A stretch of DNA of 22,993 nucleotides from a virus. Position numbers and translations under genes: made by a program. Shown here piece by piece: positions 1-4,399 of this stretch. The notes beneath the pieces were generated by a model. That model was not told the origin of the DNA. It did not search any database and worked only from the letters and a program-made list of their open reading frames with translations. The DNA lies in IMG/VR virus record IMGVR_UViG_3300048908_000054, positions 1 to 22,993 of that record; one strand, given 5' to 3'. Position 1 is the stretch's first letter, and each line of letters begins with the position of its first letter.

Positions 1-65
1 AATGCGGTCAGAAATATAAAAGCGAAAAATGCGGGTGATTATCATTCGCGCGCCTGCACCTGCGC

Positions 66-94
66 AAGCCCCGGACCGGAAACGGCGGGGCTTT
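66..94 (+). terminator. GAAA-loop hairpin, possible terminator of an upstream unit
   Basis: An 8-bp arm AAGCCCCG (66-73) pairs with CGGGGCTT (86-93). A two-base bulge (GA, 74-75) separates it from an inner CCG/CGG stem capped by a GAAA tetraloop (79-82). The following T run is only TTT, so termination would be weak. It lies 15 bases before the tRNA gene, so it could equally protect or process the 5' end of a tRNA-containing transcript. Bases 1-65 hold no gene; TATAAA at 15-20 resembles a -10 box, but any -35 would lie near or beyond the window edge. Confidence 0.45.
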
Positions 95-108
95 GTGATT
101 CAAGAATA

Positions 109-184
109 TGCGGCGGTAGAGCAGTGGCAGCTCGCTTGGCTCATAACCAAGAGGACGAGGGTTCGAGTCCCTTCCCCGCAACCA
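109..184 (+). tRNA. tRNA-Met (CAT), CCA encoded, with one extra base in the acceptor arm
   Basis: All arms are visible. The D stem is GAGC/GCTC (119-122/130-133). The anticodon stem is CTTGG/CCAAG around loop CTCATAA, with anticodon CAT at 142-144. The T stem is GAGGG/CCCTT with loop TTCGAGT, the discriminator is A181 and CCA is encoded at 182-184. The acceptor pairs TGCGG+GG (109-113, 115-116) with CCCCGCA (174-180), but C114 is left over, so the 5' strand has eight bases before T117-A118. That is either a bulged acceptor stem, a decaying gene or a base error. The anticodon and the CTCATAA loop resemble elongator or initiator Met tRNAs; the first pair T-A argues against a standard C1xA72 initiator. 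Phages often carry tRNAs. It is also the usual kind of integration target, but no second copy of its 3' end was seen in the window. Confidence 0.88.
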
Positions 185-186
185 GT

Positions 187-289
187 TTCGAGATGATGCG
201 GCCCGCGAGGTGTCCGCACTATTGCGCAGGATAGCCGGTAAGCCTGCGCGCCTTTCAGGACGGACCGGAGCCGAGCCTGACATCTCGAA
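187..289 (+). ncRNA. candidate structured RNA: four-helix cloverleaf beside the tRNA
   Basis: The whole segment is closed by a perfect 9-bp helix, TTCGAGATG (187-195) with CATCTCGAA (281-289). Inside, three more helices nest without conflict. P2 is TGCGG/CCGCA (197-201/214-218). P3 is GCGCAGG/CCTGCGC (224-230/243-249). P4 is TCAGG/CCTGA (255-259/276-280), continued after an internal loop by CGG/CCG (261-263/271-273). P4 abuts P1 directly and could stack on it. It starts 2 bases after the encoded CCA of the tRNA and ends 20 bases before the first gene of the packaging operon, whose Shine-Dalgarno AAGAGG is at 299-304. No T-loop or anticodon arm is present, so it is not a second tRNA. I recognise no known RNA family. 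Function unknown; options are a stable small RNA released by tRNA processing or a leader controlling the operon. Confidence 0.45.
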
Positions 290-309
290 TCCTTCCCCAA
301 GAGGCCCGC

Positions 310-489
310 ATGAGCCATCCGGCATCCTTCACGCTGGCCAAGGCCCTGCGCGACGTGGATAAACTCAAGCCTCTCACCACGCAAGATCATGATGAACTGG
401 TCGCCTTGCTCATGGCGTTCCGTGATCGTGTTCGCATGAGACGCGGCGACGTTGTGGAATGGCCTGCAGAAGAGAAGCCTCCGGAATGA
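310..489 (+). CDS. small hypothetical protein (59 aa)
   Basis: An ATG at 310 follows AAGAGG (299-304) at good spacing. The frame stays open for 59 codons beginning MSHPASFTLAKALRDVDKLK. The product is soluble, charged and helical, with no membrane segment or recognised domain. Its TGA overlaps the next ATG in an ATGA junction (486-489), typical of translationally coupled phage genes, which is the main evidence that it is real. It is the first gene of the packaging operon. Function not recognised. Confidence 0.6.
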   Translation: MSHPASFTLAKALRDVDKLKPLTTQDHDELVALLMAFRDRVRMRRGDVVEWPAEEKPPE

Positions 490-1238: not shown

Positions 1239-1326
1239 CCGTTTCTGGATCGCTTTTTTCGTCGCCATGTTTGGGACGGCCTTCGTCATCATGAGCGCGG
1301 CCGTGGAATTGGCGCTGGATCCGTGA
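1228..1326 (+). CDS. single-span membrane mini-protein (32 aa)
   Basis: ATG at 1228 to TGA at 1324-1326. The sequence is MAIDRFWIAFFVAMFGTAFV followed by IMSAAVELALDP. Almost the whole peptide is one hydrophobic helix with a charged N-terminal turn. It overlaps the upstream gene by 11 bases and the terminase small subunit by a GTGA junction, so it fills a gap that would otherwise be empty in a tightly packed operon. Such mini-membrane proteins are common in phages; no function can be assigned. Confidence 0.5.
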   Translation: MAIDRFWIAFFVAMFGTAFVIMSAAVELALDP

Positions 1327-1820
1327 GCGCCATGGGGCCGAAACACCCAGGGGGCCGACCGACGAAATATGATCCGGCTTTTTGCGACAGGGTCGAAAAG
1401 GAAATGGCCAAGGGGTTTTCCCTCACGGCTTTTGCTGGGCTGATTGGTGTTTCGCGCGCGACCATCAACAATTGGATGGCTGAAAACCCTGAGTTTTTGG
1501 AAGCCGTATCACGTGCGAAGGCTTTGCGGCTCGTTCATTGGGAAAAGGCGGCCATGAAAGTCGCCATGTCAGGTGGCGGACCGGGGACCGCGACTGTGAT
1601 CGTTTTCGGCCTCAAGAACATGGGTTCTGACGACTGGTCTGACACATCGAAGGTTGAGGCGAAAGTCGAGAGCAAGGTAGAGGTTTCGCCCGATGCAGCT
1701 TTCGCCGACTTCGTTGGGCGGCTGGAAAGCGTTGCCAGATCTGCAACGGCGAATACTCCAACGCCGAGCGGAATGGATGGAGACGGCGCGACCAGCGCAA
1801 CTGGCTCCTCCGGAAAGTGA
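1323..1820 (+). CDS. terS: terminase small subunit
   Basis: Recognises the packaging site on phage DNA and recruits the large subunit. Residues about 35-55 form a helix-turn-helix (SLTAFAGLIGVSRATINNWM) followed by the usual helical segment; the C-terminal third is low-complexity, rich in Ser/Thr/Gly/Asp. The length of 165 aa is normal for small terminases of this kind. The start is GTG at 1323 in a GTGA overlap with the upstream stop; ATG at 1332 is an alternative. Its last 128 bases are also read in another frame as the N-terminus of the large subunit, which follows. Confidence 0.85.
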   Translation: MSAMGPKHPGGRPTKYDPAFCDRVEKEMAKGFSLTAFAGLIGVSRATINNWMAENPEFLEAVSRAKALRLVHWEKAAMKVAMSGGGPGTATVIVFGLKNMGSDDWSDTSKVEAKVESKVEVSPDAAFADFVGRLESVARSATANTPTPSGMDGDGATSATGSSGK

Positions 1821-2988
1821 CGATTGGGCTTTTTGGCTTGTTCTGGCCGGTCGAGGCTTTGGCAAGACGCGCCTCGCGATGGAAGACGCATGGTGGTATG
1901 GCGCGATCATCCCATCGGCTCGCATTGCGCTGATAGCGGCGACCTATGCCGACGCCCGCGATACCATGGTCGAGGGCGAAAGCGGCCTGCTATCGCTTTT
2001 GCCAGAGGGATGCTTGACGGCGTGGAATCGCTCCCTTGGCGAACTGACGCTTTACAACGGGTCTAGGTTTAAACTGTTCGCATCGACGGAGCCTGACCGA
2101 CTTCGCGGCCCGCAGCATCATCGGGCTTATTGCGATGAGCTGGCGGCGTGGACCTATCCCGACACTTGGGACCAAATGCTTTTCGGCCTCCGACTTGGCC
2201 AAAGCCCGAAAGTCATCATAGCGACAACGCCGAAGCCTGTCCCGCTTGTTAAGAAGATCGTTCGCGACAAGCATACAGTCGTTACGCGCGGATCGACGTT
2301 CGACAACGCCAAGAACCTGGCGCCGAGCGCGTTGGAGCAGCTTCGGGTAAAATATGAAGGCTCCCGACTTGGGCGCCAAGAACTAAACGCTGAAATTCTG
2401 GACGATGTCCCCGGTGCGCTCTGGACGCGGGACATGATCGATGCCGCGCGAAAATCTGGCGGATTGCCGGATATGGCGCGCGTTGTGGTCGCTGTCGATC
2501 CCTCTGGCACGCGCGGCGGCTCGGACGACGGAGACAGCATCGGCATTGTCGTGGCTGGCAAGGGCGTGGATGGCCGCGCTTATGTGCTGGCGGACCGCAC
2601 TTGCAAGCTTTCGCCGAACGGCTGGGGGCGGCGCGCTGTTGAGGCCTATCGCGAATTTAAGGCTGACCGGTTGGTGGCCGAGCGCAATTTCGGCGGCGCC
2701 ATGGTCGAGCATGTGGTGCGAACGGCAGACCCGAACGTCTCTTATGGCGAGGTCGTAGCGTCGCGCGGCAAGGTGGTCCGCGCCGAGCCGATCGCCGCGC
2801 TTTATGAGCAGGGCCGCGTCTCGCATGTCGGCGGATTGTCTGATCTTGAAGACCAGATGTGTCAGATCGCGCCGGATGGGTATTTGGGCGAAGGCTCGCC
2901 TGATCGCGTGGACGCCCTTGTCTGGGCGTTAACGGAATTGATGCTCGGGAACGCGGGGCCTTTGAAGGTCAACAGTCTGCGGATGTGA
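1693..2988 (+). CDS. terL: terminase large subunit (packaging ATPase-nuclease)
   Basis: Motor that drives DNA into the prohead and cuts it. The N-terminal ATPase has Walker A AGRGFGKT (residues 52-59), Walker B ending CDE (D148-E149) and a coupling motif IATTPKP. The C-terminal RNase H-like nuclease has acidic residues in VAVDPSG (D269), AERNFGG (E330) and SPDRVDALVWAL (D407). At 431 aa it is the usual size of compact terminases of the Terminase_6/GTA-like type. The ATG at 1693 has an upstream AGAGG (1679-1683), and the segment containing ARPAQLAPP before Walker A is typical of homologues, so I keep this start despite the 128-base overlap with terS. ATG at 1777 is an alternative. Confidence 0.93.
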   Translation: MQLSPTSLGGWKALPDLQRRILQRRAEWMETARPAQLAPPESDDWAFWLVLAGRGFGKTRLAMEDAWWYGAIIPSARIALIAATYADARDTMVEGESGLLSLLPEGCLTAWNRSLGELTLYNGSRFKLFASTEPDRLRGPQHHRAYCDELAAWTYPDTWDQMLFGLRLGQSPKVIIATTPKPVPLVKKIVRDKHTVVTRGSTFDNAKNLAPSALEQLRVKYEGSRLGRQELNAEILDDVPGALWTRDMIDAARKSGGLPDMARVVVAVDPSGTRGGSDDGDSIGIVVAGKGVDGRAYVLADRTCKLSPNGWGRRAVEAYREFKADRLVAERNFGGAMVEHVVRTADPNVSYGEVVASRGKVVRAEPIAALYEQGRVSHVGGLSDLEDQMCQIAPDGYLGEGSPDRVDALVWALTELMLGNAGPLKVNSLRM

Positions 2989-2995
2989 GGGATTG

Positions 2996-4399
2996 ATGGC
3001 CGCGACTGATTTCACCGTTGACCGGCAATCAGCCGTCGTCGCCGCAATGGCCGAGCCTTGGCCGATGCTCGACGCGCTTGTCGGCGGCACGCCCGCGATG
3101 CGCAAGGCGGCGACGACCTTTCTGCCGAGGTTTCCGCAGGAGGAAGACGAGAGTTACAAGGCCCGCGTTTCGACAGCGACGCTGTTTCCGGCCTTTGCCC
3201 GAACCTGCGAGGTTATGGCCGGCAAGCCGTTCGCCAAGCCGATCACGATTGGCGAGGATTTGCCACCGCAGATCGTGGAATTGCTCGACGACGTGGATAT
3301 GTTCGGGACGGACTTCCAGCCATTTGCGGCGGCGGTGTTTCTGGCCTGTATGCAAAAGGGCCTCATGGGCGTCCTGGTGGACGTTCCGAAGGCCGATGGC
3401 GTCAAGACCCGTGCAGATGAGCGCAAGGCGGGCGTCCGGCCTTACCTGACGCAATATCCGGCGGAAAGCATTCTGGGTTGGCGCGGCGCGCGCAACGCCG
3501 AAGGAGCCTATCTGACGCAATTGCGCCTGCTGGAAAGCGTTTCTGAGCCTGACGGGCTTTGGGGCGAGAAGACCGTCCAGCAAGTTCGGGTGTTGACGCC
3601 TGGCGCTTGGGAAACCTGGCGCAAAGTCAAGACGGAGAGCGGCGGCGAGGAATGGGCGCTTTACGAGAGCGGGACGACCTCGCTCAAGAAAATCCCGTTC
3701 GTGTTTTTCTACGGCCTGCGGAAAGGCTTCGGGGTCGGCGTTTCGCCGTTGCTTGATCTGGCCTATCTCAACGTCGAGCATTGGCAGTCGTCGTCAGATC
3801 AGCAGACCATCTTGCATGTCGCTCGGGTTCCGATCCTGTTCGCCAAGGGGTTTTCAGACGCTGACGCGCTCGTTGTTGGCGCGGCCGCAGCGTGCCGAGC
3901 GAGCAACGCCGACGCCGATCTGTCCTATGTCGAGCACACCGGCGCGGCGATTGAAGCGGGACGGCAATCGATCCTCGATCTGGAAGACCGGATGCGCCAG
4001 ACCGGCGCGGAATTGCTCGTTCAAAAGCCGATGACGACGACCGCGACGCAGGTTGTGTCCGAGGGCGAAGGCTCCAAGTCGATCTTGCAGAAGATCGCGG
4101 AAGACTTCGATGAATCGCTTGAGCAATGCCTTGACCTGATGGGCGAATGGATCGGCGTTCCGACCAACGCGGAAGTCGAACTGTACAAGGACTTTGGCGA
4201 GGGGCTTTCGACAGACGACGCCAATCTGTTGATGGGCGCGGCGTCGGGCGGTCATGTTTCGTCCGAGACGGTGTTCGAAGGCTTGAAGCGCCGCGACATC
4301 GTGCCGGCCGACGCGAAATGGGACGAAGAGGCGGCCAAGATCGCCGCGCAGAAGCCGAAAGACGATCCTAAACCTAAGGGCAAGAAGCCCGTCGAATAA
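2996..4399 (+). CDS. portal protein (DUF4055-type)
   Basis: Forms the dodecameric ring at the capsid vertex through which DNA passes and to which the tail docks. The 467-aa sequence has the layout of DUF4055 phage proteins: an N-terminal segment with LPRFPQEEDESYKARVS, a helical region rich in Phe/Ala and long helices near the C-terminus, ending in a Lys/Pro-rich tail. It stands directly after terL, as portals do. The start is ATG 2996, with GAGGG five bases upstream; TTG 2993 would sit too close. It could also be annotated only as a structural protein; position and size favour portal. Confidence 0.82.
   Translation: MAATDFTVDRQSAVVAAMAEPWPMLDALVGGTPAMRKAATTFLPRFPQEEDESYKARVSTATLFPAFARTCEVMAGKPFAKPITIGEDLPPQIVELLDDVDMFGTDFQPFAAAVFLACMQKGLMGVLVDVPKADGVKTRADERKAGVRPYLTQYPAESILGWRGARNAEGAYLTQLRLLESVSEPDGLWGEKTVQQVRVLTPGAWETWRKVKTESGGEEWALYESGTTSLKKIPFVFFYGLRKGFGVGVSPLLDLAYLNVEHWQSSSDQQTILHVARVPILFAKGFSDADALVVGAAAACRASNADADLSYVEHTGAAIEAGRQSILDLEDRMRQTGAELLVQKPMTTTATQVVSEGEGSKSILQKIAEDFDESLEQCLDLMGEWIGVPTNAEVELYKDFGEGLSTDDANLLMGAASGGHVSSETVFEGLKRRDIVPADAKWDEEAAKIAAQKPKDDPKPKGKKPVE

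Follow-up and report, generated by a model that had tools for sequence, protein, structure and literature searches.

A four-helix fold between a tRNA gene and the packaging operon

How much of a cloverleaf-like fold at the head of a phage packaging operon is a functional RNA, and what might it do there? The fold occupies positions 187-289 of the window, by which we mean the whole stretch of 22,993 bases analyzed here (IMG/VR virus record IMGVR_UViG_3300048908_000054). It lies between a tRNA-Met gene and orf311, the first of several small ORFs, which are followed by genes for the small and large terminase subunits, the portal, a scaffold-like protein and the major head protein. Coordinates are collected in Table 1.

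Table 1. Features of the leader and adjoining genes in the window
Feature	Position	Strand	Remarks
Leader hairpin AAGCCCCG..CGGGGCTT and short T run, resembling a weak terminator	66..94	+	kept in L185, L235 and L315
tRNA-Met (CAT), in variable leader slot	109..184	+	ARAGORN, Rfam
P1 5' strand TTCGAGATG	187..195	+	TTCGAG invariant in four homologues; pairs 7 and 8 covary
P2 hairpin UGCGG/CCGCA	197..218	+	5-bp hairpin at the equivalent position covaries between L185 and L315
P3 and P4 arms	224..280	+	predicted in the window only; hypervariable interior, no conserved counterpart
P1 3' strand CATCTCGAA	281..289	+	
Conserved tail TCC(C)TTCCCCAWGAGG, including Shine-Dalgarno-like AAGAGG	290..304	+	
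orf311, first small gene 3' of the leader	310..489	+	homologues in L185, L235 and L315
Terminase small and large subunit genes, packaging operon	1323..2988	+	

The original prediction had described a new structured RNA in which four helices nest perfectly, the last of them abutting a 9-bp closing helix, and this geometry is present exactly where it was placed. The closing helix P1 pairs 187-195 with 281-289 (TTCGAGATG/CATCTCGAA, 9 bp) and encloses P2 (197-201/214-218, 5 bp), P3 (224-230/243-249, 7 bp) and P4 (255-259/276-280, 5 bp, extended by 261-263/271-273, 3 bp), with P4 directly adjoining P1. RNAfold returned essentially the same four-helix fold, at -42.9 kcal/mol. The statements that the element is not a tRNA and belongs to no recognized family also held up: ARAGORN and Rfam (RF00005) detected a tRNA at 109-184 only and nothing at 187-289, Rfam 15 placed no family at 187-289 either at gathering score or in a permissive scan (E ≤ 5), and the YrlA tRNA-mimic domain (RF02553) had no match in the window element.

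Folds of this kind are readily produced by the surrounding sequence. The whole element had a z score of -2.14, with 6 of 200 shuffles folding as well (9 of 300 in a repeat of the test, z = -2.12), and this z score was reached by 3 of 50 control windows from the same contig. In 91 upstream regions from relatives, multiloops, counted when closed by at least 8 bp and carrying at least three branches, numbered 179 on the plus and 215 on the reverse strand. Among 59 tRNAs, 3 had a helix of 9 bp or more beginning within 10 nt of the tRNA end, compared to 18 of 600 random positions. The cloverleaf as a whole is not clearly beyond chance.

The closing helix is kept in four phages by compensatory changes

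Relatives carrying the element were found in IMG/VR through protein searches and a search with the conserved tail; these are L185, L235 and L315, the last being the same contig as L269. The four elements differ in length (103 nt in the window, 162 in L185, 137 in L235 and 138 in L315), but all start with TTCGAG, end with CTCGAA and continue into TCC(C)TTCCCCAWGAGG. The distance from the end of the element to the start codon of orf311 or its homologue is 20 bases in every case. The three orf311 homologues lie directly behind the element and are 59-68% identical over the whole protein, and positions 37-105 of the window are 97% identical to L235 2118-2186. Searches further afield returned little. 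The element is absent from the phage records searched: when positions 185-310 were compared by blastn with 50,697 such records, the only match was 20 bases long and came from one phage, represented by two records. With the tRNA included in the query, the matches listed (best 20 of 803 records) were essentially tRNA matches. Genome scans for an orf311 homologue yielded 60 stretches, none of which was confirmed, and those for the tail word yielded three stretches, with helices of 4, 10 (L329) and 5 pairs. Using the leader or orf311 as query against phages, plasmids and proteins brought no additional elements to light.

We show by sequence comparison that the predicted closing helix P1 is conserved in these four phages with compensatory changes. 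All 36 of the 36 cells (nine pairs in each of four elements) are paired, and two pairs have changed on both sides. P1 reads TTCGAGTGG/CCGCTCGAA in L185 and TTCGAGCGG/CCGCTCGAA in L235 and L315, so that across the four sequences pair 7 is A-U, U-G or C-G and pair 8 is U-A or G-C. Sliding the P1 partner strand by 1 to 3 columns left at most 53% of the cells paired. A shuffle control of the pair count was modest (34 of 500), as four sequences allow little, while the change in P1 from the window to L315 kept all nine pairs in only about 1% of random trials. The comparison of L185 with L315 extends into the next helix. Their first 27 bases align gap-free with five differences: one turns a U-G pair of P1 into C-G, two replace U-A with G-C across P2, and two fall in the P2 loop. 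Random sets of five substitutions left all 14 pairs of P1 and P2 intact in about 1% of cases and produced a two-sided change in about 0.4%. The original prediction had named compensatory changes in all four helices as the support to look for; such support was obtained for P1 and for the P2-like hairpin of L185 and L315, but not for P3 and P4, which have no counterpart to compare.

As a control for the tail, we collected 83 rows containing the tail word, of which seven belong to the family (the four distinct elements, some held twice or three times). Among the 76 non-family rows, a single one (L272) had a helix of at least 9 bp ending at the tail. We rejected this 12-bp helix as a homologue; it looks by inspection like coding sequence, although the frame is absent from the ORF listing. 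By these comparisons P1 appears to stand beyond chance only once the relatives are considered.

The interior of the element is hypervariable

Inside P1 the four elements have diverged to the point that an alignment among them is not confident. Whole-element z scores were -2.12, -0.43, -1.74 and -1.25 for the window, L185, L235 and L315, respectively, and the interiors without P1 folded no better than shuffles (z = +0.16, 0.95, -0.65 and 0.05 in the same order). Since this holds in all four, P3 and P4 are unsupported, and the cloverleaf is not supported as a unit. In our reading the element is not a cloverleaf gene of its own, and as such a stand-alone gene it would be of little importance because its arms are not conserved.

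A word common to all four interiors, ATAGC, was considered and set aside as not significant (227 of 500 shuffles). By eye, the P3 and P4 loops of the window could form a kissing pairing (CCGGU/ACCGG), for which the relatives offer no counterpart.

A probable insertion slot at the 5' edge of P1

In the window, 2 nt separate P1 from the CCA of the tRNA, and the element had originally been linked to that tRNA. The link does not extend to the relatives: no adjoining tRNA was found at the elements of L185, L235 or L315, and the tRNA appears to be a later insert beside the element. What does precede the element in all four is a GC hairpin followed by a short T run (66-94 in the window), which a terminator scan requiring at least five T did not call in the window. 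L235 has a copy of TTTCGAG 12 nt beyond this hairpin, and its element proper begins 667 nt beyond it, suggesting that the P1 helix once directly followed the leader hairpin. The slot between hairpin and element is occupied there by an HNH endonuclease gene region (2188-2851, PF13392), which is flanked by a 9-base direct repeat, TTTCGAGCG, as after an insertion; the repeat overlaps P1. The slot holds the tRNA in the window, an RNA shared with phage Pam5 in L315, and another sequence in L185, in which we noted by eye a 9-bp helix closing two hairpins. These contents point to an insertion slot at the 5' edge of P1 that may receive a tRNA, another RNA or an HNH gene, in a small leader whose cargo at this one site differs among the four related phages.

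The gene before the leader is 56% identical between L235 and L315 and ends with a TGA inside a TTGACT box. In the distant relatives L326 and L327, inspection revealed a gene ending likewise with TTGACG and then a GC hairpin. The arrangement of an upstream gene stop overlapping a TTGACN box and followed by a GC hairpin was thus seen in window 1-105 (where the gene is cut off), L235 2065-2180, L315 2412-2525, L326 and L327. To the eye this row looks like a late regulator gene, a late promoter and the leader hairpin. Since consensus scans called neither a promoter nor a terminator in the window leader or in L315, the promoter and terminator readings rest on inspection. The predicted fold of the upstream protein had a pLDDT of 38 and was too unreliable to interpret.

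A possible clamp in the late mRNA leader

Our preferred reading, which we hold tentatively, is that the element supplies the untranslated leader of the late or packaging mRNA with a conserved closing helix, which acts in cis as a 5'-terminal clamp, probably protecting or insulating the 5' end. The transcription, processing and protection of the leader are steps that we infer. The tRNA, or other upstream RNA, would be cut from a precursor, and the late mRNA would then start about 2 nt before P1. With its 5' end held inside the P1 helix, the mRNA would resist 5'-dependent decay, and the clamp would separate upstream inserts from the ribosome site of orf311. Under this proposal the arms could drift freely because only the clamp needs keeping, and interiors that fold like shuffles are what would be expected if only the clamp matters. 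If the proposal is correct, tRNAs or other RNAs can be added at the start of a phage's late transcript while the packaging mRNA stays shielded from decay.

Stem-loops at the 5' terminus stabilize bacterial mRNAs of the ompA, papA and aprE type. Papers on these three appear among the references of PMC3997798. Like such stem-loops, the window element places a strong helix at, or close to, the leader's 5' end and follows it with a ribosome site, and after removal of the tRNA it would act alike; in four of four homologues the leader keeps this helix before the first gene. The element differs from them in that the 5' end in the window is assumed, and in that P1 closes a variable loop of 100-160 nt rather than a short hairpin. 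Transcripts punctuated by tRNAs offer a second parallel: tRNA processing frees the neighboring RNA, and the window tRNA ends 2 nt before the helix. The elements of L185, L235 and L315, which have no adjoining tRNA, depart from this parallel. Against the clamp stand the number of homologues, four only, the modest shuffle control of the pair count, and the fact that in L235 and L315 no tRNA adjoins P1 whose removal could lay the 5' end bare. Phage mRNAs with structured leaders are well known, and the element is a new, small addition to them. Searches of open-access literature turned up no description of it. Candidate structured RNAs near phage genes are reported in PMC8040213 from a comparative-genomics screen of human microbiomes.

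The same data fit control of orf311 translation or an inverted repeat that acts as DNA. In the former case, which we judge unlikely, P1 and the tail would hide or expose the AAGAGG ribosome site in cis, possibly in response to a ligand or protein, and so regulate orf311 or the operon. Both the position, with the ATG 20 bases past the end of P1, and the conserved tail TCCTTCCCCAWGAGG would suit such a role, but the predicted folds of all four elements leave the tail after P1 unpaired (the folded stretches end before GAGG), and the hypervariable interior contains no conserved binding pocket.

An RNA of about 100-160 nt freed from the leader, stable and acting in trans, is a still less likely alternative. 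Its arms would be caught in an arms race as a decoy or inhibitor, in keeping with a fixed closing helix around arms that are completely divergent in four related phages and with a leader that is a carrying site for other RNAs (the tRNA and the L315/Pam5 RNA). Speaking against it are interiors that fold no better than shuffles, a length that varies from 103 to 162 nt, and scans that revealed no end signals belonging to it. Conservation of the clamp but not of the sequence it encloses, just before a ribosome site, is easier to reconcile with a leader element working in cis than with an RNA acting in trans. A bolder version, to which we give slightly less credence still, is that the element represents a new class of phage RNAs in which the closing helix is fixed and the arms can be exchanged, beside a slot loaded with tRNAs, Y-RNA-like tRNA mimics or homing endonuclease genes. 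Such a leader would be an RNA cargo bay at the head of the late transcript, its arms changing fast against host factors.

We regard as improbable that the inverted repeat works at the DNA level, whether as a site for packaging or replication or as one targeted by mobile elements or by recombination. Inserts do occur at its 5' edge, the repeat TTTCGAGCG flanks the HNH region of L235, and terminase genes are nearby. The element nevertheless stays while the type of small terminase changes (phrog_309 in the window, phrog_51 in L185), and the single U-G pair in the L185 P1 helix mildly favors RNA over DNA. It seems just as doubtful that the conserved flanking words merely happen to be complementary and fold without function: DNA this rich in GC often forms cloverleafs and 9-bp helices, but chance accounts poorly for the compensatory changes in P1 and P2 and for the tail control, in which 1 of 76 non-family rows had a comparable helix.

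The original prediction had also raised, as speculation, a role in packaging like that of the phi29 packaging RNA, and here the genes themselves speak against it. The window TerL is an ordinary large terminase that matches the large terminase families phrog_979, phrog_38 and phrog_2 and not a phi29-type packaging ATPase. The small subunits of the window (1323-1820) and L185 (3382-4020) have different best families ahead of large subunits that are 86% identical, which looks like a gene swap, and both phages keep the element. Because TerS type differs while the element stays, we see no packaging link, and with an ordinary TerL as well, either a packaging RNA or a TerS-bound site is unlikely. A structured RNA near packaging genes is common to both systems, but terminase and structure differ from those of phi29, and a phi29-like packaging RNA, favored only by its location ahead of packaging genes and opposed by the ordinary terminase, the inconstant TerS type and the lack of an Rfam match, is extremely improbable.

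Structured RNAs in other phages

The occupant of the L315 slot (2612-2822) has a counterpart in Pseudanabaena phage Pam5 (ON014757, L331 3994-4226): the two are 74.8% identical over about 121 bases (E = 4e-11), share many conserved blocks and form a common noncoding RNA that is about 200-230 nt long and unannotated. The consensus fold of the two sequences has 36 pairs, of which six are changed on both sides. The L315 RNA had no Rfam match; the 3' part of the Pam5 RNA resembled the YrlA tRNA-mimic domain below threshold (25.3 bits against 69, E = 0.0024). By inspection, the Pam5 RNA is preceded by TTGACG-17-CATAAT and followed by a terminator, as if it were a separate gene. Four records examined for a TROVE/Ro protein contained none, and 24 records scanned with a covariance model built from the L315/Pam5 RNA gave no match. 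The two RNAs are possibly a new phage Y-RNA-like family: as in YrlA and bacterial Y RNAs, a tRNA mimic is apparent in Pam5, and the domain upstream of it aligns with the RNA in the L315 leader. The window element, in contrast, has no YrlA match itself.

Several other folds near tRNA genes came to light. In Xanthomonas phage DoCa5 (L002 1734-1869), an unannotated tRNA-Met is followed after 2 nt by a multiloop that a 14-bp helix closes (z = -3.0). This locus was the best blastn match to the tRNA plus element among those listed, and we rejected it as a homologue; its arms have no sequence similarity to the element, and it is an analogue at most. A 103-nt cloverleaf closed by TTCGAGACG/CGTCTCGAA (z = -3.23) lies at L169 2909-3011, with a tRNA-Thr and, at about 1 kb, TerL downstream of it, and occurs also in L170 and L171. 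It may be an analogue or may be chance, since several other unrelated matches of at least 8 bp turned up in the same 2.8-Mb scan. Between a tRNA-Val and TerL, L144 carries four hairpins closed by an 11-bp helix (1612-1700), lying about 165 nt past the tRNA. Rhodobacter phage RcXuper (L123) has a tRNA match spanning 131 bases, i.e., with a large insert, at 2372-2502, and a permuted tmRNA at 3216-3632, where the record lists no feature. Finally, a tRNA-Met upstream of the portal gene recurs among head-gene relatives (L034, L042, L043, L048, L051, L052 and L067).
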